This document shows, one piece after another, positions 6,284-26,402 of a stretch of 27,806 bases of DNA. Under the pieces are notes generated by a model. That model ran no database searches. It saw only the letters and a program-made list of their open reading frames with translations, and was not told where the DNA came from. How positions within the stretch are numbered: the stretch's first letter is position 1; each line of letters starts with the position of its first letter. The stretch spans positions 1 through 27,806 of IMG/VR virus record IMGVR_UViG_3300031977_000925; one strand, 5' to 3'. The DNA comes from a virus. A program made the position numbers and the translations under genes.

Positions 6284-6284
6284 G

Positions 6285-11826: not shown

Positions 11827-11954
11827 AAACAAAAAAGTGGACTCAAGCACAAAAGATTGAGCAGATAGAAAGAGCTACAACAAAACTCTACCTTATGGTT
11901 AATCAATTAGCTAAAGAGGTGCGGGAATTAAAGGGTACACAAAATCCTGAATAA
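11823..11954 (+). CDS. 43-residue helical micro-protein before the terminase
   Basis: MKTKKWTQAQKIEQIERATT, then KLYLMVNQLAKEVRELKGTQ. Predicted almost entirely as an amphipathic, probably coiled-coil helix. Its last codons overlap the upstream half (CACAAAAT) of the putative late promoter, so the early unit ends exactly where the late unit begins. Confidence 0.55.
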   Translation: MKTKKWTQAQKIEQIERATTKLYLMVNQLAKEVRELKGTQNPE

Positions 11955-11967
11955 TTACGTTATATAA
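11938..11967 (+). promoter_or_regulatory. Putative late promoter L1, before terminase
   Basis: CACAAAAT (11938-11945), 10 bases, then TACGTTATATAA (11956-11967). The terS ATG follows 24 bases later, giving a short leader. It is the only member of the set with a clear untranslated leader. Spacing and both boxes match the sites at 13459, 19991, 21485 and 23694. Confidence 0.7.
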
Positions 11968-11991
11968 TTGATTAAACAATCTTTTTCAATT

Positions 11992-12261
11992 ATGGATGGT
12001 AGAGCTTCAAATGGTGGTGCAAGACAAGGGGCGGGTAGAAAACCTAAAGCAGACGAAGCTAAATTAGTAGAACGCTTAGATGCGATCATAGACAGCAACG
12101 AAGCATTAACACAATTAGGTAAGCTCGTAGCAAAAGGCGATATGAGAGCAATACAACTATATCTCAGCTATCGTTATGGTAAGCCAAAAGAGAGTATGGA
12201 TATCAATTCATCAGAGGGGCTAAATATAAACTTTAAGGACTTAATTAAGTTTGTCGATTAA
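11992..12261 (+). CDS. terS: Terminase small subunit-like DNA-binding protein
   Basis: 89 residues from the ATG at 11992; an in-frame TTG at 11968 lies inside the late promoter and is rejected. It begins MDGRASNGGARQGAGRKPKA, the GARxGAGRKPK start common in small terminase subunits, followed by helices (LVERLDAIIDSNEALTQL, then AIQLYLSYRYGKPKE). It is shorter than most TerS. It overlaps the large subunit by 11 bases. It should recognise packaging sites and regulate TerL. Confidence 0.75.
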   Translation: MDGRASNGGARQGAGRKPKADEAKLVERLDAIIDSNEALTQLGKLVAKGDMRAIQLYLSYRYGKPKESMDINSSEGLNINFKDLIKFVD

Positions 12262-13462
12262 CATACATAAAAAATACCTGCCAATATCCACAGACGATAG
12301 TAGATACTTTGTGGTTACAGGTGGTAGGGGTTCAGGTAAGTCTTTCTCAATAAATGCTCTGCTTGTTATACTTACCTATGAGCGTGGGCATACAATCCTA
12401 TTCACACGATATACTTTAACATCTGCACGTATCTCAATCATCCCTGAGTTTATTGAGAAGTTAGAACTGATGGACTGTATTGCAGACTTCCACGTAACAA
12501 AGGACGAGATAATAAATAAGAAATCAGGAAGCAAGATAATCTTTAGGGGTATCAAGACAAGCTCAGGCGATCAGACAGCGAGTTTAAAATCACTCACAGG
12601 CATTACGACTTGGGTAGTAGATGAAGCAGAGGAACTAACAGACGAGCAGAAGTTTGATACCATTGACCTATCAGTAAGACAACAAGGCAATCAAAACAGA
12701 GTTATACTGATACTCAACCCTACAACAAAAGAACATTTTGTCTATACACGATTCTTTGAAGATAAGGGTGTACAGGAAGGTAGCAATACGAGTAAGGATA
12801 ACACCACATACATTCACACCACATACTTAGACAACTTAGACAATCTATCTACAAGCTACATAGAGCAGATAGAACAAATGAAACAGCGCAGACCTGAGAA
12901 ATACAAACAGCAGATGTTAGGTTCGTGGATGAGTAAAGCAGAGGGTGTGATATTCACTAATTGGACTATTGGGGAATTTAAAAAGAAAGGTGTTAGCGTA
13001 TGGGGGCAGGATTATGGTTTTGCAGCAGACCCCTCAACCCTTGTAGAAACAAACATAGATACAGATAACAAAATAATCTATTTAAGGGAATGTTTTTACC
13101 TGCCACGTCTTACAACCTCACAGATAGCTCAACTCAATCTTAAACACGCTAAGGATGGTCTTATTGTAGGGGATAGTGCAGAACCAAGACTTATACACGA
13201 ACTCAAAGCAAAGGGGTGTAGTGTAAAGCCATCCATAAAAGGACAGGGAAGTGTTACCTATGGCATCTCTTTATTACAAGACTACGACTTAGTGGTAAGC
13301 CCTGATAGTACAAACCTGATTAAAGAGCTGAACAATTACAGATGGTTAGAGCGCAAATCAAACACGCCTGTTGATGCTTATTGCCACCTTATTGATGCGA
13401 TTAGATACAGCGTAGGCTATCAACTACAAAACCCAAACAGAGGTCAGTACGCTATTAGCTAA
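12251..13462 (+). CDS. terL: Terminase large subunit (packaging ATPase/nuclease)
   Basis: 403 residues from a TTG at 12251 (no ATG is suitably placed). Walker A is GGRGSGKS at 24-31 and Walker B is TTWVVDEAEEL at about 119-129. A coupling-motif-like stretch ILNPTTKEHF follows. The RNase H-like nuclease half has acidic residues in WGQDYGFAADPS, GLIVGDSAEPRLI and HLIDAIRYSV. The arrangement is that of the PBSX-like (Terminase_3) group. The protein translocates DNA into proheads and cuts concatemers. Portal and capsid genes lie more than 8 kb away, which is unusual. Confidence 0.95.
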   Translation: MSINIHKKYLPISTDDSRYFVVTGGRGSGKSFSINALLVILTYERGHTILFTRYTLTSARISIIPEFIEKLELMDCIADFHVTKDEIINKKSGSKIIFRGIKTSSGDQTASLKSLTGITTWVVDEAEELTDEQKFDTIDLSVRQQGNQNRVILILNPTTKEHFVYTRFFEDKGVQEGSNTSKDNTTYIHTTYLDNLDNLSTSYIEQIEQMKQRRPEKYKQQMLGSWMSKAEGVIFTNWTIGEFKKKGVSVWGQDYGFAADPSTLVETNIDTDNKIIYLRECFYLPRLTTSQIAQLNLKHAKDGLIVGDSAEPRLIHELKAKGCSVKPSIKGQGSVTYGISLLQDYDLVVSPDSTNLIKELNNYRWLERKSNTPVDAYCHLIDAIRYSVGYQLQNPNRGQYAIS

Positions 13463-13487
13463 AATCATTTTTTTTTACGTTATATAA
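13459..13487 (+). promoter_or_regulatory. Putative late promoter L2, before tail chaperone
   Basis: CTAAAAT (13459-13465), 10 bases rich in T, then TACGTTATATAA (13476-13487). Only two bases separate it from the ATG at 13490. If this is a promoter, the transcript would be leaderless or nearly so. Confidence 0.68.
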
Positions 13488-13489
13488 GT

Positions 13490-14137
13490 ATGAAAGTAGA
13501 TATAGAAATCCCTGAATCGCTTAATGAGATAACCTTAGACCAATATCAGAGATATCTAAAGATACAAGATAACAACGAGGACGAGAAGTTTTTAGCTGTT
13601 AAGATGATAGAGATATTTTGTGGGATACGTGGCGACCACGTCCTGCTTATGAGGGCTACTGACATTAACAGCATAGTGCAGATATTAACTGAGATGCTAA
13701 ACCATACACCCAAGTTGCAAACTATGTTCAAGATGAAAGGTACGCAATATGGGTTTATACCTAAGTTAGATGATATGAGCTTTGGCGAATACATAGACTT
13801 AGATACGTTTATAGGCGATTGGGAAAATATGCACAGGGCTATGAATGTTCTATACAGACCTATTGTGAATCAATATGGCGATAAGTACAACGTAGAGGAT
13901 TATAGCGTAGATAACGCAGAAAAGATGAAAGATATGCCCATGAGTGCAGTCTTAGGTTCTATTGTTTTTTTTTACAATTTAGGGATGGACTTATCGAAAG
14001 CTATGCTGAACTATTTGGGGAACGAGGAGATGAACTTAGCGCTGCATCTAATTTCGGACGAAAATGGGGGTGGTATCAATCACTTTACGCACTCGCTCAG
14101 GGGGATATTGGACGATTTGAAGATATCACTAAACTAA
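13490..14137 (+). CDS. Tail assembly chaperone, short (G-like) form
   Basis: 215 residues. The N-terminus (DIEIPESLNEITLDQYQRYL, then FLAVKMIEIFCGI and a PKLDDMSFGEYIDLDTFIGD segment) is of a type common in Bacteroidetes phages at the tail-chaperone position. It ends GGGINHFTHSLRGILDDLKI. It lies between terminase and the tail-tube-side genes, ahead of the tape measure. A run of nine T at 13965-13973 lies inside it, and a second protein-like frame (-1) runs on past its stop, as in lambda G/GT. The identification rests on position, size and the frameshift arrangement. Confidence 0.78.
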   Translation: MKVDIEIPESLNEITLDQYQRYLKIQDNNEDEKFLAVKMIEIFCGIRGDHVLLMRATDINSIVQILTEMLNHTPKLQTMFKMKGTQYGFIPKLDDMSFGEYIDLDTFIGDWENMHRAMNVLYRPIVNQYGDKYNVEDYSVDNAEKMKDMPMSAVLGSIVFFYNLGMDLSKAMLNYLGNEEMNLALHLISDENGGGINHFTHSLRGILDDLKISLN

Positions 14138-14226
14138 ACGCTCATCAATGTTTATATGCCCTAAGTTTTATGAAAGACAAAGCAGAGTTAGAAGCAAGAC
14201 AAATAAAAAGTAAATTTAATGGCTAA
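13966..14226 (+). CDS. -1 frameshift extension of the tail chaperone (GT-like), no start codon of its own
   Basis: The frame one base behind the chaperone frame is open through the slippery run to the TAA at 14224-14226. It has no ATG, GTG or TTG between 13966 and the middle of the segment. It encodes convincing protein: FGRKWGWYQSLYALAQGDIG, then RFEDITKLNAHQCLYALSFM and KDKAELEARQIKSKFNG. Slippage at T-TTT-TTT (13966-13972) would give about 245 residues; a site closer to GAAAATGGGGGT (14060) is an alternative. It overlaps the next gene's ATG (14219). In the related lambda system the fusion is made at a few percent and is needed for tail assembly. Confidence 0.68.
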   Translation, partial: FFLQFRDGLIESYAELFGERGDELSAASNFGRKWGWYQSLYALAQGDIGRFEDITKLNAHQCLYALSFMKDKAELEARQIKSKFNG

Positions 14227-14692
14227 TCAAGGTGTAATAGGTTTTTACCAAATAACCAAAACAATCAAAGACCAACTGTTAGACGATGTAAACGTCAACA
14301 CAGTAACAACAGGGGATATCACAGACATTGACTTAGCCAAGCAGACAATGTACCCTTTATCTCACTTTATAGTAAACAACGTAACATTAGAGGAAAACAT
14401 ATATAGGTTTAATATCTCTGTGTTGGCTATGGATATTGTTGACCAAAGCAAAGAAGCAACCACAGACATCTTTAAAGGTAACAACAACGAACAGGATGTG
14501 CTTAACACTCAGCTTGTAGTTTTAAACAAACTTATACAAGTACTTAGAATGGGTACGTTGTATCAAAACAAATACCAATTAGATGGCGACCCTACTTGCG
14601 AACCCTTTTATGATAGATTTGAGAATCAAGTAGCAGGATGGGCTTGTACGTTTGATGTATTAATACAAAACGATATTAATATATGCAGCTAA
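14219..14692 (+). CDS. Putative tail terminator or tail-completion protein
   Basis: 157 residues with an alpha/beta layout: N-terminal helix (GVIGFYQITKTIKDQLLDD), then TVTTGDITDIDLAKQTMYPL, NNVTLEENIYRFNISVLAMD, and GWACTFDVLIQNDINICS at the end. The layout (helix, then strands, with a mid-protein helix of DVLNTQLVVLNKLIQ) resembles small tail terminator proteins. Position next to the chaperone and the HK97-gp10-like gene fits. It overlaps that next gene by 10 bases. No catalytic motif. Confidence 0.6.
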   Translation: MANQGVIGFYQITKTIKDQLLDDVNVNTVTTGDITDIDLAKQTMYPLSHFIVNNVTLEENIYRFNISVLAMDIVDQSKEATTDIFKGNNNEQDVLNTQLVVLNKLIQVLRMGTLYQNKYQLDGDPTCEPFYDRFENQVAGWACTFDVLIQNDINICS

Positions 14693-15189
14693 AAGAAACA
14701 CAGGCAGCTCTAAGGGCTTTTGGTAAGTATGTAGTGCAACAATCACGCACAAACCTTACTAAAGGCAAAAAGAACGTAAATAAAAAATTGTACGATTCTA
14801 TTGGATACACCATAGAGGAAGTAAGTCAAGGTTTTAGACTTTACTTTGAGATGGAAGATTATGGTATGTTTCAAGACAGGGGTGTTAAGGGTGTTAAAGG
14901 TGGTAAGTCTTTAAGTAATTTTAGTTACAAGCAATCATCAAACCTCGTAGGGTTAGAAAGTAAAACAGGTACGTTTGGTAAGTGGGCATCTGCAAAGAGA
15001 ATACAGTTTAGAGACAAAAAGGGTAGGTTTTTAAGTTATAAGCAGACAGGGTTTGCGCTTGCTACGATTGTAAAGAACTATGGTATAAAGCCTTCTCTGT
15101 TTTTTACTAAGCCCTTTGAGAAAGCATTTACTAACCTACCTAAAGAATTACAAGAGCAATTTGCTATCGATTTAGAAAACTCAATATAA
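14683..15189 (+). CDS. Neck/tail completion protein, HK97 gp10-like
   Basis: 168 residues, basic. The YGMFQDRGVKGVKGGK stretch corresponds to the Y-x-x-x-x-E/D-x-G turn of HK97-gp10-like proteins, with helices before (LRAFGKYVVQQSRTNLTKG) and after (KPFEKAFTNLPKELQEQF). These proteins join the head-tail interface. It is rich in Lys and Gly, with a possible flexible loop at 65-90. It overlaps its neighbours by 10 bases and 1 base. Family assignment is moderate; structural role is likely. Confidence 0.62.
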   Translation: MQLKETQAALRAFGKYVVQQSRTNLTKGKKNVNKKLYDSIGYTIEEVSQGFRLYFEMEDYGMFQDRGVKGVKGGKSLSNFSYKQSSNLVGLESKTGTFGKWASAKRIQFRDKKGRFLSYKQTGFALATIVKNYGIKPSLFFTKPFEKAFTNLPKELQEQFAIDLENSI

Positions 15190-16259
15190 TGGCAACAAAG
15201 ATAAACGTAAGAAGTCCTTTTTATGTAAAAGCAAGTAATGGCGGTTTAGCTTCTGCTACAATGCGGTTATATATTTACACAGGTGTATTAACAACAGACA
15301 AGCCTTCTACTGCACAATATACCATAACGAAAAACGAAATAGACTCAAATAACTATGTGGTGTTTGAGATTAGCGAACTTGTGCGTGATTATTTAGAAGT
15401 AGAGTTTAACGGAACGCATACAAGTTATTCTGTTTGGGTAGAGTCTGATATCACTATTTATAGTGGTGTTGATGGTGGTGGTACAAGTTTAGGTACAAGC
15501 AACACAGACTATATTGCTTTGGATGGCTATGGTTATTTTACTGATAGTATTAATCCTGAGCTACAAAGAGATGCATTACAATCAAACCTTATAATCTACA
15601 AAGACGAAAACGAGGATGTAATACTGCCTGTATTTGCAGAGGACACGAATACAGTTAAATACTATCAAGATGCAACGGAAAGACATACAGTTACCATAAC
15701 CGATAATGGAAACACAAACCAAAAAATACAATACATAAGTAGTAGTGTAGTTACAGGTACATTCAATAAGATTGTGGTTAATTATGGCGCAGGTGCAGGT
15801 ACTGACAAAACATTTACAGTAGAGGAATTACAATGCAGTAAATACACACCAATTAAAGCTACGTTTGTAAATAAGTTTGGTGCGTTGCAAGATATGTACT
15901 TAGACCGCAAAAATACTGAGTCTATAAACACACAATCTGAAACATACAAATCAGCTAACATCAACCTGTCTACTTTGACCTATGATGTCAACGAACACCA
16001 AAAGCGAACATTTGATAAAATGGGTAATGAAACAATAGTAGCTAACACAGGGTACATAAGCGACACTCATAACGAAGTGATCAAGCAACTTATGTTAAGC
16101 GAACAAGTTTGGTTAGAAAAATTAGATGGCACAAACAGCATCTATCCTGTTAATGTTACAACTCAGTCATTACAATACAAAACAAGCGTAAACGATAAGC
16201 TCGTACAATACACGCTTAACTTTGAATACGCATTTGATAAAATAAACAACGTAAGATAG
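15189..16259 (+). CDS. Tail structural protein, beta-rich
   Basis: 356 residues, almost all beta-strand patterns. It begins KINVRSPFYVKASNGGLASA, has ISELVRDYLEVEFNGTHTSY near 60-80, and ends SLQYKTSVNDKLVQYTLNFE. It is a type commonly found before the large tail-tip protein in Bacteroidetes phages. No enzyme motif is present. The SPFYV opening and the repeated Thr/Ser-rich strands fit a distal tail or baseplate component. Its stop overlaps the GTG of the next gene by one base. Confidence 0.6.
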   Translation: MATKINVRSPFYVKASNGGLASATMRLYIYTGVLTTDKPSTAQYTITKNEIDSNNYVVFEISELVRDYLEVEFNGTHTSYSVWVESDITIYSGVDGGGTSLGTSNTDYIALDGYGYFTDSINPELQRDALQSNLIIYKDENEDVILPVFAEDTNTVKYYQDATERHTVTITDNGNTNQKIQYISSSVVTGTFNKIVVNYGAGAGTDKTFTVEELQCSKYTPIKATFVNKFGALQDMYLDRKNTESINTQSETYKSANINLSTLTYDVNEHQKRTFDKMGNETIVANTGYISDTHNEVIKQLMLSEQVWLEKLDGTNSIYPVNVTTQSLQYKTSVNDKLVQYTLNFEYAFDKINNVR

Positions 16260-18328
16260 TGCAAAGCATACAGCTATATATCGAAGGTCAACGTATAGAT
16301 ATGTTTAAAGATGAAAGCGTATCTATCACTCAGTCTATCCAAAACGTAAAGGACATAGCTAAAGTGTTCACAGAGTTTACAAAGACGTTTACCCTGCCTG
16401 CTTCTAAAACTAACAACAAGATATTCAAGCACTATTATAACTTTGATATCACAGGGGGCTTTGATGCGAGAACAAAGAAAGACGCTACACTTGAATTAAA
16501 CTACCTACCATTTAAAAAAGGTAAGATAAAGTTAGAAGGTGTAGATTTACAAAACAGAAAACCTAAGTCTTATCGCATCACATTCTTTGGTAACACTGTA
16601 ACACTTAAAGACTTATTAGGCGAAGATAAGCTAAGTGCACTTACAAGTCTTAATAGCTTAAACGAAACCTTTTCATCTTCTGAAATAAAGTCAGCTTTGC
16701 AGAGAAACCCTGCATCAAACGATGTAGTAGTACCTATTATCACTCACACAAAAAGACTTTACTACGATAGTGGGGATAACACACACAACACAGGGAATCT
16801 ATACTATCAAAGTGGTAATAAGCATGGTCTTGCTTGGAACGAGTTAAAATACGCACTAAGGGTACATAAGATTATAGAAGCTATTGAGGATGCTTATGGT
16901 ATAACTTTTAGTACAGATTTCTTAAACACCACAAACGATGCTTACTATGATTTGTTTATGTGGTTACACAGAAAAAAAGGTATAGTATCAAGTGGCAAAC
17001 AAATAGACACCTTTACTAATCAAATAGATGGTTGGACAGCAGGGGCAGGTACTACTACACCACCAACTGCTTCGCCTTTATCACAAATGACTAACACCTC
17101 AGCACTACAAGTTACAGCTACACCACCTATTTTAAATTTTACTTTAAACTTACAAAGGACAACAACCCAACCATACGATATTAATATATTTAGGAATGGT
17201 ATAGAGGTTTATTCAGAAAGCAACATAACAAGCACAAATAAAATAATCTATTTAACCTCTGTTTATAGCCCTTTATCTTATTATACTGTATCTGTTGAGT
17301 ATTCAGCTGCATTTACATTTACAGATATTATATGGACTACTCAAAAGCTTGCTTTCACAACAACAGTTACTACAACTCACAGTACAGGTAATTATGTTTT
17401 AACTACTGATTTTGATTTTGTTATTACAGGTCAAATACCTGAAATAAAAGTAATTGATTTTTTGACAGGATTGTTCAAGATGTTTAACCTCACAACTTTT
17501 GTAGAGGATGATGGTACGATATACGTTGATACCTTAGATAACTTTTATGCAAATAAAAAATCAATAAGCACAGCATACGATATAAGCGAGTTTGTAGATG
17601 TAAACAGTAGTCAGGTTAATGTAGCTTTGCCATATAGAGAAGTATCGTTTAGTTATGAAGATACAGATACATTTTTAGCTGCTACACACAATCAGCTGTT
17701 TAATCAAGAATGGGCAAAGACAGATTATAGCCAAACAGATGATGATGGCAATATAGTAGATGGTTCTCTTTATAGCGTAGTAGCCCCATTTGGACACCCT
17801 AAATACGAAAGACTTGTTAATTTAGATACAGAAAGCCAAACAGATATACAATGGGGTTGGTCGGTAGATGATAACCAAGAAAGCTATATAGGAAAACCAT
17901 TACTATTTTATCCTGTATATACAAACCCCTCAGAAACAATTAGCTTTATAGATGTAGTCAATGCAGATGGCACTTATAACACACACTCTGCTGTATCAGG
18001 AAGCGTTAATATGCCATCTAACAGCGTTTCTTTTAGCTCAGGTACATCTACTGCCAATATCAATTTTAAGTTAGAGAAAAACGAATATACAGGCGATAGT
18101 AGTTTTACAGGTACGTTGTTTCAAAACTATTATAGCACTTATATTACAAATGTGTTCAATACAAAGAACAGAATCACAAAAGTAAAGGCATACTTACCCC
18201 TTAGAATCCTTTTAAACTTTACACTTGCTGATAGGTTCGATATCAATGGCAAAAGGTATAAGATCAACAGCATAGAAACGAACTTAGCGACAGGCGAATC
18301 AAACATAGAACTATTAAACGAATTATGA
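16259..18328 (+). CDS. Large tail-tip/baseplate hub-like protein
   Basis: 689 residues from a GTG at 16259 (TAGTG overlap with the upstream stop). The first ~130 residues are IQLYIEGQRIDMFKDESVSI, FTEFTKTFTLPASKTNNKIF, then GFDARTKKDATLELNYLPF and RKPKSYRITFFG. This resembles the N-terminal barrel of hub-type proteins. A middle region at about 250-380 is Thr-rich, fibronectin-like and probably an insertion. The end has LRILLNFTLADRFDINGKRY. It is likely the tail-tip protein that contacts the cell. Assignment is by size and position between tail and tape-measure genes. Confidence 0.62.
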   Translation: MQSIQLYIEGQRIDMFKDESVSITQSIQNVKDIAKVFTEFTKTFTLPASKTNNKIFKHYYNFDITGGFDARTKKDATLELNYLPFKKGKIKLEGVDLQNRKPKSYRITFFGNTVTLKDLLGEDKLSALTSLNSLNETFSSSEIKSALQRNPASNDVVVPIITHTKRLYYDSGDNTHNTGNLYYQSGNKHGLAWNELKYALRVHKIIEAIEDAYGITFSTDFLNTTNDAYYDLFMWLHRKKGIVSSGKQIDTFTNQIDGWTAGAGTTTPPTASPLSQMTNTSALQVTATPPILNFTLNLQRTTTQPYDINIFRNGIEVYSESNITSTNKIIYLTSVYSPLSYYTVSVEYSAAFTFTDIIWTTQKLAFTTTVTTTHSTGNYVLTTDFDFVITGQIPEIKVIDFLTGLFKMFNLTTFVEDDGTIYVDTLDNFYANKKSISTAYDISEFVDVNSSQVNVALPYREVSFSYEDTDTFLAATHNQLFNQEWAKTDYSQTDDDGNIVDGSLYSVVAPFGHPKYERLVNLDTESQTDIQWGWSVDDNQESYIGKPLLFYPVYTNPSETISFIDVVNADGTYNTHSAVSGSVNMPSNSVSFSSGTSTANINFKLEKNEYTGDSSFTGTLFQNYYSTYITNVFNTKNRITKVKAYLPLRILLNFTLADRFDINGKRYKINSIETNLATGESNIELLNEL

Positions 18329-18480
18329 TACAGAATATCTTAGAGTTACTACCCTATGTAAAAGATGGCTCGGAAAACATCCGAATAGCTAAAGGACAGA
18401 ACTATCTACCTAAGAACTTAAAACAAGCATTTACCCAAGTTAAAAACGAAATAAAATGGCAGTCAAAAAAACAATCATAA
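18325..18480 (+). CDS. Hypothetical 51-residue protein
   Basis: Reads MIQNILELLPYVKDGSENIR, then IAKGQNYLPKNLKQAFTQVK and NEIKWQSKKQS. Soluble and basic at the C-terminus. ATGA overlap with the tail-tip gene, and its last 25 bases overlap the tape-measure start in another frame. The tight tiling supports it; the function is not recognised. Confidence 0.58.
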   Translation: MIQNILELLPYVKDGSENIRIAKGQNYLPKNLKQAFTQVKNEIKWQSKKQS

Positions 18481-18962
18481 TTGATGCACAGACCGATGGG
18501 GCTGAAAAAAGCATTGATAATCTTAAAAAGAGTACTGATAATCTAAATGAAAGCACAGAAGATTTAACAGGTAGCTTAGATAATCTTACAGGTGGTGCTA
18601 TTAGTGGGTTTAAGGGTGTTAGCCAAAGTGTTAAAAAAGCAGTTAGTGGATTTAAGAGTCTTAGGGTGGCGATTATTGCCACAGGTATAGGTGCATTAGT
18701 GTTAGGTGTTATATCTCTACAAAAGGCATTTACAGCATCAGAAGAGGGGCAAAATAGGTTTGCCAAGTTAATGACTCAGATAGGTGTTGTTACAGGTAAT
18801 GTAGTAGATATCTTGGCTAACTTAGGGGAATCCATATTTGCAGCAGGTAAGGCATTATTCAAACTTGCTAAAGGCGATTTAAAAGGCGCATCCGCAGCAT
18901 GGGGCGAACTCAAAGAAAATGTATCTGAGGTTGTAGATGGTGTTAAGAACTTTGGCGAATAA
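18456..18962 (+). CDS. Tape measure protein, N-terminal part ending at an in-frame TAA
   Basis: 168 residues up to a TAA at 18960. After a short strand (KKTIIIDAQTDGAEKSIDNL) come coiled-coil repeats of the K-S-T-D-N-L type. A hydrophobic helix follows at about 70-90 (VAIIATGIGALVLGVISL), then Gly/Ala-rich helices (FAAGKALFKLAKGDLKGASA). This matches the start of Bacteroidetes-phage tape measure proteins. The reading frame continues past the TAA in the same frame, with perfectly sensible protein. It is probably one gene with a nonsense change or a sequencing error, not a natural end. Confidence 0.8.
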   Translation: MAVKKTIIIDAQTDGAEKSIDNLKKSTDNLNESTEDLTGSLDNLTGGAISGFKGVSQSVKKAVSGFKSLRVAIIATGIGALVLGVISLQKAFTASEEGQNRFAKLMTQIGVVTGNVVDILANLGESIFAAGKALFKLAKGDLKGASAAWGELKENVSEVVDGVKNFGE

Positions 18963-19988
18963 ACAAAAAACGAAATAAAGTTAGCAGGTCAGTTAGCAGA
19001 TGCAAGAGCTAAAGCAGACAAGGTAGAAAGAAGATTGCTTGTTGATAGAGCAGAAGCAGATAGAAAACGAGCAGAGCTTTTAGAGAAAGCAGTAGATAGA
19101 GAGCAGTTTTCAACAGAGCAAAGGATTGAGTTTTTAAAAGAAGCAGGTAGGATAGACCAAGAGATAACTCAACAAGAGATACAGGCATCTCAATTAAGAT
19201 TAGAAGCCAAACAATTAGAGAACTCTTTAGGCAAGTCAACAAAAGAAGATTTAGACGAGGAAGCACAACTTAAAGCCAACTTAATACAATTAGAAACTGC
19301 AAGACTATCTAAGCAAAAAGAGGTTACATCTCAAACCATTGCTCTATTAAACGAACAAAGAGCAGCAGAGAAAGCGATAGCCGATGAAAAGGCGGCAGAG
19401 GAAAAAGCAGCAGCAGACGCAGAAGCTCAAAGACAAAAAGAAGCTGAGGAAAAAAGAAAGCAATTAGCGGAAGCAGCTAAACAAGATGCTCTAAAGCAAG
19501 CTGAGTTAGATAAACAACTTGCAATCCAAAAACAACAAGATATCACAAACGCACTTGGTAACATAGCAAGTATTGTAGGGCAAAATTCTAAGTTTGGTAA
19601 AGCTATTGCAATTGTACAAGCGATTAGAGATACTTATGCAGGTGCGAACAAAGCTCTTGCTCAGGGTGGTATTTTTGGGTTTATAGGGGCTGCTGCTGTT
19701 GTAGCAGGTGGACTTGCTAACGTCAAAGCCATAACGTCTGCACAAGAACCTGCTGCACCAAGTTTTGCTCAAGGTGGTGGAAGAGGTGCGCCAACTGTAT
19801 CTGTGCCAACTGCAACGCCCCCTACACCCCCTGCATTTAACATAGTAGGTGCATCAGATACGAACCAATTAGCAGAAGCAATAGGTGGACAAGCGCAGCA
19901 ACCTGTAAAGGCATACGTGGTATCAAACGATGTAAGCACAGCACAGGAATTAGACCGAAACATCGTAGAGGGTGCATCGATAGGATAA
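18963..19988 (+). pseudogene. Tape measure protein, C-terminal part after the TAA (same frame, no start codon)
   Basis: The frame is open from directly after the TAA to 19988, giving 341 residues that continue the same protein: ELAGQL-type coiled coil (IKLAGQLADARAKADKVERR), a long Ala/Glu/Lys helix (AAEKAIADEKAAEEKAAADA), and the typical C-terminal membrane-like part (FGKAIAIVQAIRDTYAGANK, then GFIGAAAVVAGGLANVKAIT). There is not one Met codon in the part from 19035 to the end, and the first candidate start is a TTG at 19035. It therefore cannot readily be made on its own. The whole 18456-19988 gene would be about 510 residues. Confidence 0.75.
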
Positions 19989-19990
19989 AA

Positions 19991-20020
19991 TACAAAAACC
20001 AAACTAAATACGTTATATAA
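19991..20020 (+). promoter_or_regulatory. Putative late promoter L3, before the prohead protease
   Basis: TACAAAAA (19991-19998), 10 bases, then TACGTTATATAA (20009-20020), two bases before the ATG. Same box-to-ATG distance (14 bases from TACG) as at 13476 and 21503. Confidence 0.7.
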
Positions 20021-20022
20021 AT

Positions 20023-21210
20023 ATGCGAATCGTAGAACTAATCTTAGATGACCAAGAGATAACAGGGATAGAAGCGATATCTGTCGTAGAGAACCCTGCC
20101 ATTGAAGAGGATTTTATTGCACTTAAAAACGAAGAGATAAAACTTGCTGAGGTATCAGGCGAGAAGCGTATCCTACTTGGTGCATTACTTATCCCAAACA
20201 AACCTATATACAGACGTAAGGGCGATGATGAGTATTATATATACTTTTCAAAAGATACAGTAGAAAAGGCATCGCAGCTATACTTACAGAATGGCAATCA
20301 AAACAAAGCCACATTAGAACATCAACACAGCATTAACGGATTAACACTTGTAGAAAGTTGGATAGTAGAGGACGAAACACACGACAAATCAAGAAAGTAC
20401 GGGCTAAATGTACCTGTGGGAACTTGGATGGGGGCTGTAAAAGTCAACAACGAAGAGATATGGGAATCGTATGTGCGCACAAAAAAAATTAAAGGATTCA
20501 GTATTGAGGGGTATTTCGCTGACAAGATGGAACGCCCTAAAGAACCTATCAATGACTTTGATGAGGACGAAGCTCAGGATATGCTGAAACACATCCGTAG
20601 AATCGTTAAAAAGGATGGTAGATACAAAGATGGTAAAAAAGAGGAATTAGAATCCTACTCTGATTACCCAAGTGGTGTAAAAAACAACGCAAAGCGTGGT
20701 ATTGAACTCAACGAGAAAGTAAATAACAAATGTGCTACTGATGTAGGTAAGATACGAGCGCAACAATTAGCACAGGGTAAACCTATCTCAAAAGAAACTA
20801 TCAAACGTATGTACTCATATCTAAGCAGAGCAGAAGAGTACTACGATGAAAGCGACACTAAGGCGTGTGGCACTATCTCTTATCTTCTATGGGGTGGTAA
20901 AGCAGGTAAGCGATGGGCTGAAAGCAAGTTAAAAGAATTAGGCGAATTAGATTTAGCTTCTCAGGTTATTAATGACGAGATGGCGATTATAGATGATAGA
21001 CTTGCGTTTGCTACAAAAGAATTAGCAATAGCAGCAGCAAAAGATATTGGTTGCGAATCTTACCACGAACACGAGTACGAGGGTAAGGTATGGTATATGC
21101 CTTGCGAACAGCACAACCTTAAAAAGCCATGCCAAGATGGATACGTCCAATATGGCATGAAAATGAAAAACGGAAAAAAAGTACCTAATTGCATACCGAT
21201 AGATGGCTAA
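20023..21210 (+). CDS. Prohead protease, XkdF-like, with two extra C-terminal domains
   Basis: 395 residues. Residues ~48-165 match the XkdF-type serine protease: LGALLIPNKPIYRRKGDDEY, KATLEHQHSINGLTLVESWI with the candidate His (100 or 102), and IKGFSIEGYF with candidate Ser160. Residues ~215-300 form a separate domain (YPSGVKNNAKRGIELNEKVN, then CGTISYLLWGGKAGKRWAES) often seen fused to phage head proteins. The C-terminus has CESYHEHEYEGKVWYMPCEQ and a Y-x-QYGMK-x-K-x-G-x-x-VPNC motif. The protease trims scaffold and capsid during maturation. The roles of the other two domains are unknown. Scaffold and capsid genes follow. Confidence 0.8.
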   Translation: MRIVELILDDQEITGIEAISVVENPAIEEDFIALKNEEIKLAEVSGEKRILLGALLIPNKPIYRRKGDDEYYIYFSKDTVEKASQLYLQNGNQNKATLEHQHSINGLTLVESWIVEDETHDKSRKYGLNVPVGTWMGAVKVNNEEIWESYVRTKKIKGFSIEGYFADKMERPKEPINDFDEDEAQDMLKHIRRIVKKDGRYKDGKKEELESYSDYPSGVKNNAKRGIELNEKVNNKCATDVGKIRAQQLAQGKPISKETIKRMYSYLSRAEEYYDESDTKACGTISYLLWGGKAGKRWAESKLKELGELDLASQVINDEMAIIDDRLAFATKELAIAAAKDIGCESYHEHEYEGKVWYMPCEQHNLKKPCQDGYVQYGMKMKNGKKVPNCIPIDG

Positions 21211-21337
21211 ACGAATAGACTACATAAAAGTATTAAAGCCAAAGGTACGCAGAAAAGGTGTACACGCTAAAACCAAAATGAGTAGCATTAAAGGTTCAAA
21301 GCTATATAAGAAAAAATACAGAGGTCAAGGAAAATGA
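21203..21337 (+). CDS. 44-residue basic phage protein (KTKxSxxKxSKxYKKxYRGQGK type)
   Basis: MAKRIDYIKVLKPKVRRKGV, then HAKTKMSSIKGSKLYKKKYR and GQGK. The HAKTK...SK-x-YKK-x-YRGQG ending is one I recognise in many phages at this head-gene position. Highly basic, so nucleic-acid binding is plausible, but its function is unknown. It overlaps the protease by 8 bases and the next gene by 4 (ATGA). Confidence 0.72.
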   Translation: MAKRIDYIKVLKPKVRRKGVHAKTKMSSIKGSKLYKKKYRGQGK

Positions 21338-21477
21338 TTAAACGACTTAAACGATTTATCACACCATCGAGAACAAGCCCTAAGGGATCAAGACGTGCGT
21401 GTTTATGTGAGGATAACACGTATTCTATAAAGTGTTGTGACGGCTCGTTAAGAGCGCAAGGTATTGGGAAGGTATAG
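21334..21477 (+). CDS. 47-residue Cys-containing phage protein (CLC..NTYSI.CCDGS.RAQGIG type)
   Basis: MIKRLKRFITPSRTSPKGSR, then RACLCEDNTYSIKCCDGSLR and AQGIGKV. The four-Cys CxC...CC core followed by DGSLxAQGIG is a pattern that recurs in Bacteroidetes phages near the head genes. It may bind metal or form disulphides in the virion. It ends 40 bases before the scaffold gene, with late promoter L4 between. Confidence 0.72.
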   Translation: MIKRLKRFITPSRTSPKGSRRACLCEDNTYSIKCCDGSLRAQGIGKV

Positions 21478-21484
21478 CCCAAAA

Positions 21485-21514
21485 TACAAATTAATTTTTA
21501 AATACGTTATACTA
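21485..21514 (+). promoter_or_regulatory. Putative late promoter L4, before scaffold
   Basis: TACAAATT (21485-21492), 10 bases, then TACGTTATACTA (21503-21514), two bases before the ATG. The downstream half differs from the others at two positions, which breaks the TTATATAA palindrome seen elsewhere. Confidence 0.65.
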
Positions 21515-21516
21515 TT

Positions 21517-22104
21517 ATGAAAGCGACAGAAATTCTAAGTAAAATCAAAACCTATCTTGGGGAAGATACTGCTGATATTGTAGAAAATATCGAGCAATCC
21601 CAAGTAGTAGAGTTAGCACAAGCGAAACTCGAAAATGGAACTGTCCTTGAAGCAGAAGCGTTTGAATCAGGCAAAGAAGTCTTTATCCTTACAGACGATG
21701 AGAAAGTAGCCGTACCCGTTGGCGAATACCAAATGGAAGATGGTCAAATCCTTGTTGTAAGCGAAGAGGGTATCATTGGCGAAATCAAATCTGCTGAACA
21801 GGAAGAGGAAGAAGTAGAAGCATCTGAGGAAGTTGAAGAACTTGAGGAAGTGGAAGCTGAATATGCTACTAAAGAAGAGTTAGCAGAAGTGAGATCATTG
21901 GTTGAGGAAATCAAGCAGATGATTGAAAAGAAAGAGGAAATGAGCGAAGTTGAAGAGCAAGTGAAAGAGGAACTATCCGAAACACCTGCCACAGAAGCGA
22001 TCACTCATAACCCTGAACCCAAACAAAAAGTAAGTCTTAAGTATGCGCAAAACAGAAAGCAAAGTACTTTCGACAAAGTAATGTCTAAAATTGTTAACAA
22101 TTAA
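21517..22104 (+). CDS. Head scaffolding protein candidate
   Basis: 195 residues, very acidic, with runs of Glu (about 92-115: EQEEEEVEASEEVEELEEVE) and coiled-coil helices (LAEVRSLVEEIKQMIEKKEE). A small beta part at 40-90 (KLENGTVLEAEAFESGKEVF) precedes them. A basic C-terminus (KVSLKYAQNRKQSTFDKVMS) would contact the capsid protein. Acidic coiled-coil composition, place between protease and capsid, and a separate late promoter all fit scaffold. It would be cut by the protease during maturation. Confidence 0.8.
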   Translation: MKATEILSKIKTYLGEDTADIVENIEQSQVVELAQAKLENGTVLEAEAFESGKEVFILTDDEKVAVPVGEYQMEDGQILVVSEEGIIGEIKSAEQEEEEVEASEEVEELEEVEAEYATKEELAEVRSLVEEIKQMIEKKEEMSEVEEQVKEELSETPATEAITHNPEPKQKVSLKYAQNRKQSTFDKVMSKIVNN

Positions 22105-22114
22105 ATTTATATAA
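22085..22114 (+). promoter_or_regulatory. Variant late promoter L4b, before the major capsid gene
   Basis: CTAAAAT (22085-22091), 10 bases, then TAAATTTATATAA (22102-22114), one base before the ATG. Compared with TACGTTATATAA it has AA for CG and one extra base, but the upstream box and the spacing are exact. It overlaps the end of the scaffold gene. Confidence 0.42.
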
Positions 22115-22115
22115 A

Positions 22116-23012
22116 ATGCCAAATCCAACTATTACAGGAAGTAGCTATGCAGGGGAATTTGCAGGAAAATATCTCGGTGCAGCCCTTCTAAGTGCTGATA
22201 CACTTGACAAAGGTGCTATCACAATTTTACCAAATGTAAAGTACAAAGCTGCTATGAAAGTAGGTGCGTTCTCAAATCTTGTGCGCTCTGCTGATTGCGA
22301 CTTTGACTCTACTACATCAACACTAACTCTAACTGAGAAAGTGATTACACCAACTGAGTTGCAAGTTAACTTACAAATCTGTAAGAAAGAACTTCACGCT
22401 GATTGGGAAGCTGCTCAAATGGGATTCTCTGCTTTTGACGAGCTACCCCCATTGTTCTCAGACTTCGTTATCGCTCGTGTAGCTGCTGAGGTTGCTAAAG
22501 CAACTGAAACTTCTATATGGTCAGGTAGCGCAGGGGAAGGCAACTTTGATGGTTTTGAAACTCTACTTACTGCTGATGCAGACGTAGTAGATGTTACTGC
22601 TGTTACTGTTACTACTTCAAACGTAATTGCTCAATTACAGGCGATTGTAGATGCTATCCCAAGTGGTGTATATGGTAAAGAAGATTTAACTATCTATATC
22701 TCTCAAAACATCGCTAAAGCGTATGTAGGCGCACAAGCTGCTTTGGGTTATAGAGATTTGTATCACGTAGGACAGACTGAGATGAACTTTCAGGGAATCC
22801 CATTGTTTGCCACAGGTGGTCTTGCTGATAACACAGCAGTAGCTGCTCAGAAAAGCAACCTTTTCTTTGCGACAGGTTTGCTAAATGATAGAAATGAGGT
22901 GCGCGTGATAGACACCGCTGATTTTTTAGGCGACGACAATGTTCGTGTAGTTATGCGCTATACAGCAGGTGTGCAGCATGGTATTGGTTCTGATATCGTT
23001 CTCTACTCGTAA
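22116..23012 (+). CDS. Major capsid protein (HK97-fold type)
   Basis: 298 residues. It opens PNPTITGSSYAGEFAGKYLG, with Gly/Ala-rich turns. An E-loop-like segment follows (VKYKAAMKVGAFSNLVRSAD), then ELQVNLQICKKELHADWEAA, a spine-helix-like FSDFVIARVAAEVAKATETS, and late strands DNVRVVMRYTAGVQHGIGSD. Length, order and composition match capsid proteins of Bacteroidetes siphoviruses. A strong terminator follows. It is expected to be the most abundant virion protein. Confidence 0.86.
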   Translation: MPNPTITGSSYAGEFAGKYLGAALLSADTLDKGAITILPNVKYKAAMKVGAFSNLVRSADCDFDSTTSTLTLTEKVITPTELQVNLQICKKELHADWEAAQMGFSAFDELPPLFSDFVIARVAAEVAKATETSIWSGSAGEGNFDGFETLLTADADVVDVTAVTVTTSNVIAQLQAIVDAIPSGVYGKEDLTIYISQNIAKAYVGAQAALGYRDLYHVGQTEMNFQGIPLFATGGLADNTAVAAQKSNLFFATGLLNDRNEVRVIDTADFLGDDNVRVVMRYTAGVQHGIGSDIVLYS

Positions 23013-23030
23013 TCAATAATTCTCTAACTT

Positions 23031-23070
23031 AAAAGGGGTGGGTAAGCCGAGTGCCTACCTACCCTTTTTT
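23031..23070 (+). terminator. Rho-independent terminator after the capsid gene
   Basis: A nine-pair stem GGGTGGGTA/TACCTACCC with one G-U pair and an 11-base loop. AAAA lies before it and TTTTTT after it, so the stem can extend. No late promoter box is seen between it and the tail-tube-like gene, which suggests deliberate partial readthrough. Confidence 0.88.
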
Positions 23071-23087
23071 ATTAAAATAAAATTAAT

Positions 23088-23609
23088 ATGGCTTGTGCAG
23101 TATCAAACGGAAGAGCGTTACCATGTAAAAGTGGTGTAGGTGGGCTGAAAAACATTTACTTTGGACCATACACATCTACCACAGCAGCATTGACTGACAG
23201 TAGTGGTACAATCACTTTAGATGATAGCGTATCTTTCTACAAATATGAAATCAAGGGCAACTCGTCATTAGAAACTGCTATTAACTCGTCAAGAGAAAAT
23301 GGCACTACTTTTTATGAGTCAACCCTTAATGTTACATTTACGTTTTTAGATGTAGCTACTCAAGAGCAGATTAAGCTCTTAGCACATGGTCGACCTCAAA
23401 TCGTTGTTGAGGATTATAATGGCAACGGATTTTTAGTAGGTAAAGATCATGGTTCAGAAGTTACAGGGGGTACAGTTGTTACAGGTGCAGCTATGGGGGA
23501 TTTAAGTGGATTTACGCTTACCCTTACTGCTCAGGAAACAGCACCACCTTTCTTTGTAGCATCATTACCAACTGATGACTCATCATCACCAATTAACCCA
23601 ACACCATAA
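23088..23609 (+). CDS. Major tail tube protein candidate
   Basis: 173 residues. It begins ACAVSNGRALPCKSGVGGLK, a conserved start (C-x-x-x-x-GRxxPCK-x-x-GG) I associate with Bacteroidetes-phage tail tube proteins. A beta-rich body follows (FYKYEIKGNSSLETAINSSR, then STLNVTFTFLDVATQEQIKL) and a Pro/Ser-rich end. Position after the capsid and before the neck genes is consistent. It follows the capsid terminator by 17 bases, so its dose would be set by readthrough. Confidence 0.72.
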   Translation: MACAVSNGRALPCKSGVGGLKNIYFGPYTSTTAALTDSSGTITLDDSVSFYKYEIKGNSSLETAINSSRENGTTFYESTLNVTFTFLDVATQEQIKLLAHGRPQIVVEDYNGNGFLVGKDHGSEVTGGTVVTGAAMGDLSGFTLTLTAQETAPPFFVASLPTDDSSSPINPTP

Positions 23610-23664
23610 ATTTTTTGTATATTAGCAAAGAGTTTATTTCATTAAGTTTGGTTTAATAATAATT

Positions 23665-23690
23665 AGGGGGTTTAAAAGCCCCCTTTTTTA
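23665..23690 (+). terminator. Rho-independent terminator after the tail-tube-like gene
   Basis: A five-to-six-pair stem AGGGGG/CCCCCT with the loop TTTAAAAG, then TTTTTA. It lies three bases before late promoter L5, so one unit ends and the next starts here. Confidence 0.88.
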
Positions 23691-23693
23691 TTA

Positions 23694-23723
23694 CACAAAA
23701 TTTACAATCTATACGTTATATAT
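23694..23723 (+). promoter_or_regulatory. Putative late promoter L5, before neck/portal genes
   Basis: CACAAAAT (23694-23701), 10 bases, then TACGTTATATAT (23712-23723), five bases before the ATG at 23729. It stands directly behind a terminator, the arrangement expected of a real promoter. It would drive neck, portal, adaptor and fibre genes. Confidence 0.74.
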
Positions 23724-23728
23724 GTAGT

Positions 23729-24148
23729 ATGATAATCTTAACTACATCCACATCTGATCAAACTTTTAAAGTTATACCACGTAGAACCATTGTGGGGGGC
23801 TTGATTTTGACGATAAGAAACGAATCAACAAACGATGTTACTACATATACAGGGGACTTTATTTGGAGTATATATAACACAACCTATAATCTATCTTCTA
23901 TTGAGTGGCAAGGGTCAGACTTATCAGGTAGTCAAGGCGAAACGTATTTAGAAATTACAAATAAGTTTGACTTAACGGAGTCTAACTATTATACATTTAC
24001 AATATCAGACTCAGTAGGAGAATTGTACAAAGGTGTTATATTCTGTACAGACCAAACAGTAGATCAAGATACGAACTCTTATTATACTGTAAATGAGGGC
24101 GAATATGTATCAAGCACTACATTTGATAATGATTATATTATATTATGA
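23729..24148 (+). CDS. Virion-associated protein (neck or head-tail), hypothetical
   Basis: 139 residues, beta-rich: MIILTTSTSDQTFKVIPRRT, then GGLILTIRNESTNDVTTYTG and LEITNKFDLTESNYYTFTIS. The L-x-T-x-x-S-x-x-x-F-K-x-x-PR-R opening is common among small proteins near portal genes in marine Bacteroidetes phages. No enzyme motif. It overlaps the portal start by 4 bases (ATGA). Exact structural role unknown. Confidence 0.6.
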   Translation: MIILTTSTSDQTFKVIPRRTIVGGLILTIRNESTNDVTTYTGDFIWSIYNTTYNLSSIEWQGSDLSGSQGETYLEITNKFDLTESNYYTFTISDSVGELYKGVIFCTDQTVDQDTNSYYTVNEGEYVSSTTFDNDYIIL

Positions 24149-25902
24149 AAAACGATTTAAGAATAGTTAACCTAAGCACCTACACAAGTCCTACTGTAAA
24201 AGAAGTACGGAATCAAGAGTTTGTGAGCTATGGCGAAGATAACAACTACTTTCAGTATCTCATAGACAGATACAATGGTAGCCCTACTAATAACGCTATC
24301 ATAAACGGAATTAGTGAGATGATTTATGGTAAGGGGTTAGATGCTACTGATAGTAATAAGAAACCTGACCAATACGCACAGATGGTGTCTTTGTTTAATG
24401 CTGATTGTGTTCGTAAGGTAGTGTACGATTTAAAATTGATGGGTCAATGTGCTATTCAGATAATCTACTCTAAGGATAGAACTAAAATTGTAAAACTTGA
24501 GCATATCCCTGTTGAAACACTACGAGCTGAGAAGTGTAATGATAAAGGCGAAATTGAAGCGTACTTTTATCACTACGATTGGGCTAAGTACAAAAAGAGC
24601 GATGAGATAAAACGTATCCCTGCCTTTGGAACTTCAAAAGAGGGCTTAGAGATTATGTACATCAAACCTTATAGAGCAGGATTTAAGTATTATTCGCCTG
24701 TTGATTATCAAGGGGGTACACAATACGCAGAATTAGAGGAAGAGATAAGCAACTATCACTTAAACAATATAATGAATGGTTTAGCACCATCTATGCTTAT
24801 CAACTTTAATAACGGAACACCTGACCCTGAGCAAAGGGAACTAATCGAAAGACGTATTTATGAGAAGTTTAGTGGTAGTAGCAATGCAGGTAAGTTTATT
24901 TTGGCTTTTAATGATAACGCAGAAACTGCTGCCGATATACAACCTATTCAACTTTCTGATGCTCACAATCAATATCAGTTTTTAAGTGATGAGAGCGCTC
25001 GTAAGATACTCGTTTCACACAGGGTAGTATCGCCTATGCTTTTAGGAATTAAAGACAATACAGGGCTTGGAAACAACGCAGACGAGCTTAAAACAGCTAC
25101 TATTCTTATGGATAACACAGTTATTCGTCCGTTTCAAAGATTGTTGATTGAGAGCTTTGACCAAATCCTTGCGTATAATAACATTTCACTTAACCTTTAC
25201 TTTAAAACCTTACAACCTTTAGAGTTTACCGACCTTGACAATGTTGCTGATATGGAAACACGAGAAGAGGAAACAGGGGTTAAAATGAGCAAAGAGGACT
25301 TGACTGATGAAGAGTTTGATATCATCCTTGACGAGCTAAGGGGCGAAACAATGTCAAACCGATGGGAAGCGGTTGATGTAAGAGAACACAGCGAGGATAA
25401 CGAAAGTATAGAGGATTGGGCTGTAAAGCACATTGAAAGCAAAGAAGAGAAATTAGAAAAAAGATCAATAGATTCTAAAAAGAGTGGGTTTAGTTATTTA
25501 GACAAATCCCTATATAAAGTAAGATATCGATACGCTGAAAAATACAGCTCAGGCAAATCAAGACAGTTTTGTCGTATTATGATGAGCAGAAGCGGTAGAG
25601 GTGTAGTATATAGAATAGAAGATATTGACAAGGCATCAAACGCAGGTGTAAATAAGTCTTTTGGACATCAGGGCAAAGCATACGATTTGTTTAGATTCAA
25701 AGGTGGGGTTAATTGTGGGCATAGATGGGAAGAGGTCTTATACAGACTAAAATCTAAGACTATGAAAAAAGTTATCCAAAACTACGATGAAGTAGATAAG
25801 ATACCTAAGTCTTATGCGCCTACTCCAAGAGGATATAAGGATGCAGCCAAAGCACCAAAAGACATGAAAGACCAAGGACACCACCCAAATTATAAAGGAT
25901 AA
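24145..25902 (+). CDS. Portal protein with extra C-terminal domain
   Basis: 585 residues. Residues 1-360 follow the PBSX/HK97-type portal: FVSYGEDNNYFQYLIDRYNG, GSPTNNAIINGISEMIYGKG, QIIYSKDRTKIVKLEHIPVE, ISNYHLNNIMNGLAPSMLIN, then ILVSHRVVSPMLLGIKDNTG. Residues ~470-560 are a separate domain (KVRYRYAEKYSSGKSRQFCR, then SNAGVNKSFGHQGKAYDLFR and GGVNCGHRWEEVLYRLKSK) with Cys and His suggestive of metal binding. The same domain is known fused or near portals in other phages, function unknown. The portal forms the head vertex ring for packaging. It lies far from terL. Confidence 0.88.
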   Translation: MKNDLRIVNLSTYTSPTVKEVRNQEFVSYGEDNNYFQYLIDRYNGSPTNNAIINGISEMIYGKGLDATDSNKKPDQYAQMVSLFNADCVRKVVYDLKLMGQCAIQIIYSKDRTKIVKLEHIPVETLRAEKCNDKGEIEAYFYHYDWAKYKKSDEIKRIPAFGTSKEGLEIMYIKPYRAGFKYYSPVDYQGGTQYAELEEEISNYHLNNIMNGLAPSMLINFNNGTPDPEQRELIERRIYEKFSGSSNAGKFILAFNDNAETAADIQPIQLSDAHNQYQFLSDESARKILVSHRVVSPMLLGIKDNTGLGNNADELKTATILMDNTVIRPFQRLLIESFDQILAYNNISLNLYFKTLQPLEFTDLDNVADMETREEETGVKMSKEDLTDEEFDIILDELRGETMSNRWEAVDVREHSEDNESIEDWAVKHIESKEEKLEKRSIDSKKSGFSYLDKSLYKVRYRYAEKYSSGKSRQFCRIMMSRSGRGVVYRIEDIDKASNAGVNKSFGHQGKAYDLFRFKGGVNCGHRWEEVLYRLKSKTMKKVIQNYDEVDKIPKSYAPTPRGYKDAAKAPKDMKDQGHHPNYKG

Positions 25903-26402
25903 TGGCAACAGCACTATTTATTTCAAGAACGGACTTAGTTAAGAACAGTATTATCGATGGTAATGTTGATACTGACAAGTTTATACAGTTTATCAAGATT
26001 GCACAACAAATTCAGGTTCAGAACTATTTAGGTACAGACCTTTACAACAAGATTAGTGCGGATATTATTGCAGGTACGCTTACAGGCGATTATCTTAACC
26101 TTGTAAATGATTATATACAACCCATGCTTATATGGTGGGCGCAGGTTGAGTATCTACCTTATGCAGCTTATCAGATTAAAAATGGCGGTGTATTTAAGCA
26201 CACCTCAGAGAATAGCGAAAGCGTAAATAAAAACGAAGTAGATTATTTAGTAGGAAAGGCACGAGATACAGCAGAGTATTACACACGTAGATTTATTGAC
26301 TATATGAGTTTTAATAGCTCTACGTTCCCTGAGTACAATAGCAACTCAGACTCTGATGTATATCCTGATACAGACTCACTATTTAATGGGTGGGTATTAT
26401 GA
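25902..26402 (+). CDS. Head-tail adaptor-like protein, DUF6712-like
   Basis: 166 residues, mostly helical. ALFISRTDLVKNSIIDGNVD, then FIKIAQQIQVQNYLGTDLYN and ISADIIAGTLTGDYLNLVND resemble the adaptor-like DUF6712 family (ALFI-x-x-x-D-L...GNVD...AQ...YLGTDLY). Such helical proteins dock under the portal. It starts on the last base of the portal gene (TAATG) and overlaps the next by 4 (ATGA). Confidence 0.72.
   Translation: MATALFISRTDLVKNSIIDGNVDTDKFIQFIKIAQQIQVQNYLGTDLYNKISADIIAGTLTGDYLNLVNDYIQPMLIWWAQVEYLPYAAYQIKNGGVFKHTSENSESVNKNEVDYLVGKARDTAEYYTRRFIDYMSFNSSTFPEYNSNSDSDVYPDTDSLFNGWVL

Follow-up and report, generated by a model that had tools for sequence, protein, structure and literature searches.

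The 27,806-nucleotide viral stretch IMGVR_UViG_3300031977_000925 from IMG/VR (positions 1 to 27,806, referred to throughout as the window) belongs to a marine phage that encodes a small sigma factor of its own and has five putative late-gene start signals to match. We consider it highly probable that the five signals, all intergenic, are late promoters for the host core RNA polymerase joined to the phage sigma factor of the extracytoplasmic function (ECF) type encoded at 5658-6155. In this phage and its relatives the sigma gene is found together with a set of phage-specific promoters ahead of the structural genes, and the promoter bases vary together with residues of the sigma factor.

A two-box motif ahead of five gene units

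The 9-mer TACGTTATA occurs six times in the window (6192, 11956, 13476, 20009, 21503 and 23712), every time on the plus strand. Dinucleotide shuffles give a chance expectation of 0.56 copies over both strands, with a maximum of 3 in 200 shuffles. The original prediction, made from the letters of the window, had listed six copies with five of them intergenic and directly before genes, and all of these positions were reproduced. The five intergenic copies precede terS, gene 13490, the protease gene, gene 21517 and gene 23729, and each has a C/T-AAAA box 18 bp upstream. A box exactly 10 nucleotides upstream had also been claimed for all five, and the gap is indeed fixed: the sites at 11938, 19991, 21485 and 23694 match YACAAAWT-N10-TACGTTATA with 0-1 mismatch, and the site at 13458 keeps the 10-nucleotide gap with a box, GCTAAAAT, that brings 3 mismatches to this pattern.

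To avoid circularity, a scoring matrix of 29 positions was trained on distant relatives only, using 40 sites drawn from 26 genomes in which the sigma factor is less than 58% identical to that of the window. Under this cross-trained matrix the five intergenic sites took the top ranks in the window, scoring 26.7, 24.0, 20.0, 19.5 and 17.6. One of 40 shuffles reached the score of the fifth site and none of the 40 reached those of the other four; no further plus-strand site in the window had a comparable score.

A predicted sigma factor of the ECF type

The product of 5658-6155, previously proposed to be a compact sigma factor, matches Sigma70_r2 with an expect value (E) of 2e-4 and PHROG 1740 (sigma factor) with E=1.8e-5, and its predicted fold is that of an ECF sigma factor, all of which bears the proposal out. 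Sigma70_r2 was detected in 22 of 38 relatives at E 0.01 or better (best 3.9e-6). The alignment of 38 sigma sequences contains an invariant E-D-x-V-Q-E motif (E30, D31, V33, Q34 and E35) and an ISYYSLYNTY-like helix close to the C-terminus. Region 2 spans approximately residues 1-83 and region 4 approximately residues 100-165.

The AlphaFold2 model (mean predicted local distance difference test score, pLDDT, of 83) consists of two helical domains, with helices at residues 4-77 and 102-161 and a low-confidence linker between them. When this model was compared with known structures by Foldseek and VIA, ECF sigma factors ranked top. In the VIA comparisons, region 4 matched the sigma E/-35 DNA complex 2h27 (Z 10.1, root-mean-square deviation (rmsd) 2.1 over 66 residues), and region 2 matched the NepR-bound RpoE structure 5uxx (Z 9.8, rmsd 2.7 over 79) and SigR 1h3l (Z 8.9, rmsd 2.3 over 70). 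Superpositions of the whole chain gave an rmsd above 10, as expected because the two domains are joined flexibly, and it is the per-domain matches that carry the argument. A sequence search of solved structures returned weak ECF matches only, the best at E 0.039. The model has the region 2 fold and a region 4 fold of the -35-binding kind; the lack of regions 1.1 and 3 and the short linker within 165 residues fit the ECF (group IV) layout, to which a two-box promoter with fixed spacing also belongs. By its modelled fold, the open reading frame (ORF) at 5658-6155 is an ECF-type sigma factor made of region 2 and region 4.

Motif and sigma gene in related phages

A scan of IMG/VR with the sigma factor found at least 594 stretches with an encoded match; the 80 best were retained. 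Late gene order is common to the related contigs that span it (38 contigs). The two-box element recurs in the relatives upstream of the orthologues of 13490, the protease gene, 21517 and 23729, often directly after a terminator and with a -10 spelling that differs by clade. In nine genomes scanned with the matrix, all 41 matches scoring at least 14 lay on the late-gene strand and 0 on the other, and 31 of them had an ATG at the same offset.

A search with the sigma alignment detected the sigma gene in all 12 protease-selected contigs of at least 25 kb; in G049 the gene reads partly as X, that is, N in the DNA. Protease-selected contigs without it were all shorter than 23 kb, and the one examined, G048, begins downstream of the sigma locus. 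Apart from these contigs below 23 kb, no motif-bearing relative lacking the sigma gene was found.

A tblastn search with the window sigma against annotated phages gave no match, and relatives were reached by a portal search instead. The nearest isolates by that search are the Nonlabens phages P12024S/L, in which gp33 is a sigma homologue (26% identity, BLASTP E=1e-10) at the same relative place, annotated in its record only as 'hypothetical protein, containing Sigma-70 region 2'. Seven P12024S/L gene starts are preceded by a AAAACAAA-like box and a CGTTA-type element, spelled CGTTAATA or CGTTACTA. A search of the open-access literature found no useful paper on the P12024 phages or on late promoters of Flavobacterium phages. 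From the relationship to P12024S/L and from base composition alone, we infer that the host belongs to the Bacteroidota. No relative of the sigma factor was found in one-per-species bacterial genomes, and therefore these give no host or provirus link.

Promoter bases vary with sigma residues

Near-duplicates (sigma identity 93% or more) were removed before covariation was counted, leaving 61-62 non-redundant genomes. T occupies -9 in every one of the 142 sites. The base at -10 is T in all 41 genomes with K or R at sigma residue 39, and A or G in all 21 with L, I, Q or Y. When every alignment column was compared with the -10 base, residue 39 alone was free of errors and residue 67 alone had a single error. 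At -11, G accompanies D at residue 71 (48/48), and T or A accompanies N or A (14/14). Co-occurrence and covariation of motif and sigma gene across relatives had been put forward as a check in the original prediction, and both hold: the gene is present in the 12 long contigs, and the -10 base sorts perfectly by residue 39.

A profile alignment with E. coli sigma E places residues 67, 70 and 71 at N80, K83 and N84. We take these to be the equivalents of sigma H N88, I91 and N92, using a presumed offset between sigma E and sigma H. In the crystal structure, sigma H N88, I91 and N92 read position -10 and the pair at -11 (PMC6411747). A sigma tree was built with the covarying columns masked, and on it the -10 class and the residue-39 class change four times each, in step. 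The covariation rule was recorded ahead of two further scans, in which residue 71 fitted in 21 of 21 new loci with a readable site and residue 39 in 20 of 20 loci where it could be read; as a test of the rule these scans are only partly independent, because many loci belong to clades already sampled. They also yielded a fourth class, CTATATA with Y39, G67 and A, S or Q at 71, which had been sighted once before.

The terS promoter is the clearest case of such a change. It reads CAAAATCCTGAATAATTACGTTATATAATTGA in the window and CAAAATCCTGAATAATTACGATATATAATTGA in G006, one base differing in the compared stretch (T at -10 to A); the TerL of G006 is 84% identical to that of the window, and its sigma factor has L39 and G67, fitting A at -10. 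Five phages of the N71 type (TerL 83-84% identical) have TTTATATATTA at the same terS position, and behind it G048 and G059 retain a leader almost identical to the window's; the sigma gene of G048 lies outside the contig, its N71 type being assigned from relatives and promoters. Two other pairings were rejected. As sole determinant of -10, residue 70 fails in L281, where I70 is paired with CGAT; residues 39 and 67 do fit. We also gave up an association of residue 145 in region 4 (Y to R in G058 and G061) with a C to T change in the -35 box, since whether the box has C or T depends on the gene and not on the sigma factor.

Some observations weigh against our interpretation of the sigma factor and its pairing with the promoters. 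G003, the exception at residue 67, and its near-duplicate G044 combine G67 with T at -10. Residues 39 and 128 also sort -11 perfectly; several columns sort this position well, as almost all of the change falls within one clade, and the residue-71/-11 part of the covariation is therefore weaker than the -10 part. The alignment to the sigma E residues is of low confidence and is anchored on the DVVQE motif. Independent pairs number only 2 (supported branches) to 4, so a sign test cannot reach significance. Finally, the Sigma70_r2 score of the window sigma is 21.5 bits, against a Pfam curated cut-off of 24.

The broader proposal is a natural sigma-promoter code with at least four classes at -12 to -9 (CGTT, CGAT, TTAT and CTAT), set by region-2 residues (39 and 67 for -10; 71 and 74 for -11 and -12). 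It would have evolved repeatedly, with the late promoters of each genome changing in step and with late mRNAs mostly leaderless in hosts that rarely have such mRNAs. We hold this broader proposal with belief and doubt in about equal measure.

The covariation also bears on the alternative that these are host promoters, recognised either by the primary sigma factor of Bacteroidota or by an ECF sigma factor of the host. TACGTTATA has TAnnTT in common with the host -7 element TAnnTTTG, and ECF promoters of Flavobacterium psychrophilum carry a CGT box at -10 (PMC9723704). However, the two middle positions of the F. johnsoniae -7 element are almost never G, and the element has been revised to TAHHTTTG (PMC6847099), whereas the motif has CG there. 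The sites depart from the host primary consensus (TTTG / TAHHTTTG; PMC6847099) in that the second middle base of TACGTTATA is G and TTTG is lacking. A host sigma factor would also leave unexplained why the -10 base follows phage sigma residues across genomes, and we regard host promoters as improbable.

Predicted transcription start

The C of CGTTA lies exactly 12 nucleotides ahead of the A of ATG in 238 of 270 sites (not dereplicated). Taken with the sigma H numbering (G-11, T-10, T-9), this spacing places the predicted +1 on the A of ATG. It falls exactly on the ATG for 3 of the 5 window promoters; the predicted leader is approximately 3 nucleotides at 23694 and 24 at 11938. Most late mRNAs are thus predicted to be leaderless or nearly so, a distinctive prediction because only 5.5% of mRNAs in Flavobacterium are leaderless (PMC9723704).

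A single distance to the ATG, shared by most sites, would also suit a translation-initiation element in place of a promoter, the more so as Bacteroidota lack Shine-Dalgarno sequences (PMC6847099). Yet G003, G014 and the terS units have their ATG considerably further downstream, with unchanged spacing between the two boxes. The upstream box is approximately 30 nucleotides from the ATG, the sites come directly after terminators, and the covariation partner is a sigma factor, all of which makes a translation element very unlikely. Conserved bipartite sites upstream of genes might also be operators for a repressor or activator acting on the host holoenzyme, and the original prediction had itself named a repressor. 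The box, however, is directional, lies on the coding strand and keeps its promoter-like spacing to the start codon in the same 238 of 270 sites; the -35/-10 layout, the invariant T at -9 and the covariation with residues in the DNA-reading helices of the sigma factor leave operators with very little probability beside late promoters.

Proposed late switch

We propose that the sigma gene would be expressed from the early/middle region behind the helicase gene, and that its product would then switch transcription to the late units, turning on packaging, tail, protease, head and portal genes. Region 4 would bind the C/T-AAAA box, and region 2 would read and melt CGTTATA, recognising G at -11, T at -10 and the invariant, flipped T at -9. 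If +1 is the A of ATG, the -10 element would sit where sigma H has GTT (-11 to -9). The analysis establishes the motif with its position and conservation, the predicted fold of the sigma factor, and the co-occurrence and covariation of the two; binding, transcription start, timing and leaderlessness are what we infer. A sigma switch from host-type early promoters to a phage-specific late set is, as far as sequence can indicate, well supported.

The early side of this switch had been predicted to use host-type promoters, and this stands in part. One perfect TAnnTTTG lies near a gene start, at 7951, 20 nucleotides ahead of the ATG; otherwise only the weaker forms TAACTTTA and TATATTTA were seen. 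The window contains two TTTG-N15-23-TAnnTTTG pairs, neither upstream of an early gene start, and a two-hexamer sigma-70 scan gave no excess above shuffles. The clade of G008, G010 and G011 has TAATACGTAACTATAATACGTTATATA ahead of an early gene start (L027:2270-2310; also L029 and L030). This is a TACGT-type direct repeat without an upstream A box, which the late-promoter model does not explain.

Other sites and features of the window

Table 1. Predicted promoters, genes and related features of the window
Feature	Position	Strand	Details
DnaB-like helicase gene, early/middle unit	4753..5661	+	PHROG 18375 E=4e-33; overlaps downstream sigma gene
Phage sigma factor, ECF type (predicted)	5658..6155	+	165 aa; TTG start overlapping helicase stop
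Sixth TACGTTATA copy, outside promoter set	6192..6200	+	Within small ORF 6145-6285
Putative late promoter, terS	11938..11964	+	CACAAAAT-N10-TACGTTATA; predicted leader ~24 nt to ATG 11994
Late unit 1: terS and terL	11994..13462	+	Terminase_3 E=2.7e-32 for 12251-13462
Putative late promoter, gene 13490	13458..13484	+	GCTAAAAT-N10-TACGTTATA; predicted +1 = A of ATG 13490
Late unit 2: gene 13490 (PHROG 32199) and presumed tail genes after it	13490..19988	+	
Putative late promoter, protease gene	19991..20017	+	TACAAAAA-N10-TACGTTATA; predicted +1 = A of ATG 20023
Late unit 3: head maturation protease	20023..21210	+	Peptidase_S78_2 E=4.3e-14
Putative late promoter, gene 21517 (scaffold/capsid unit)	21485..21511	+	TACAAATT-N10-TACGTTATA; predicted +1 = A of ATG 21517
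Late unit 4: scaffold-position gene, major capsid candidate, gene 23088	21517..23609	+	
Intrinsic terminator-like hairpin with T tail	23665..23684	+	Ends 9 nt upstream of 23694 promoter
Putative late promoter, gene 23729 and portal	23694..23720	+	CACAAAAT-N10-TACGTTATA; predicted leader ~3 nt
Late unit 5: gene 23729, portal, gene 25902	23729..26402	+	Portal PHROG 33693 E=4.2e-110

Two sites by which the original prediction had extended the promoter set were not retained. The sixth copy of the 9-mer (6175-6203, gap 9) has the wrong gap and no matrix match and lies inside a conserved ORF. On the sequence evidence it is a coding coincidence, because synonymous changes in close relatives destroy the 9-mer: in L017, L018, L020 and L021 the encoded TGIRYI is unchanged, but ATA CGT becomes ATT CGC and TACGTTATA is lost. 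The ORF itself, 6145-6285 (MGLGDLVFYFTKYTGIRYIVKK...; GDLVFYFTKYTGIRYIVKK...CGCDERR), has approximately 46 codons and overlaps the end of the sigma gene, and an ORF like it comes after the sigma gene in very many relatives. The variant before the capsid gene (22085-22114) likewise has no matrix match and was not seen upstream of the capsid genes of relatives.

Between the capsid gene and gene 23088 lies a terminator-like hairpin (23036-23066), conserved in relatives and with no late promoter behind it, which perhaps causes partial termination and so sets the ratio of capsid to gene 23088 product. The window also contains two probable DNA methyltransferase genes (7119-7781 and 10753-11373), the second with a DPPYG motif.

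Both ends of the record, 1-1033 and 26500-27793, resemble one tail-fibre-type gene region and share repeated motifs such as ERMRIDSSG, which suggests that the genome is circularly permuted and was cut within this region. The record closes with AGATCGGAAGAGC (27794-27806), the beginning of a common Illumina adapter; these last bases are probably a sequencing artefact.

Significance and comparison with known systems

A single sigma family is traceable here, together with its promoters, through dozens of genomes, so that the pairing of residue with base is readable from nature; this naturally varied sigma-promoter code is the part likely to be of specialist interest. It makes visible how several promoters shift together, and turns the question of sigma-promoter co-evolution into specific swap experiments. 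It also offers a means of predicting late promoters across a common group of marine phages, and it clearly predicts leaderless late mRNAs for hosts in which only approximately 5% of mRNAs are leaderless (PMC9723704).

Late-gene phage sigma factors are already known in a few model systems; what is new here is the family, its occurrence in Bacteroidota phages and the two-box promoter. A search of the open-access literature found no late-gene phage sigma factor described for Bacteroidota phages. T4 gp55 and SPO1 gp28/gp33-34 are late sigma factors that redirect the host polymerase. T4 gp55 relies on one -10-like element together with a sliding-clamp co-activator, whereas the window phage has both sigma domains and a second promoter box. 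Nearest in kind are phages of the phiEco32 type, which include 7-11: in them a phage sigma factor reads a 9-bp element (TAATGTATA) upstream of structural genes, and the sigma promoters of Salmonella phage 7-11 were similarly inferred from sequence (PMC4331800). Those phages belong to another phage family and infect another host phylum, and the window phage differs in having a conserved upstream box at a fixed spacing.

Cellular ECF sigma factors (sigma E, and sigma H and sigma L of M. tuberculosis) share the two-domain arrangement of region 2 and region 4 predicted here, as well as a two-box promoter with rigid spacing and, as in sigma H, G-T-T at -11 to -9. The window sigma differs in being phage-encoded and placed to control virion genes, and its sequence similarity to ECF proteins of solved structure is barely detectable. 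A parallel among isolates is provided by the Nonlabens (Persicivirga) phages P12024S/L (Inhavirus), with their homologous sigma gene and a motif before seven gene starts, although their -10 element is CGTTAATA or CGTTACTA and not CGTTATA.

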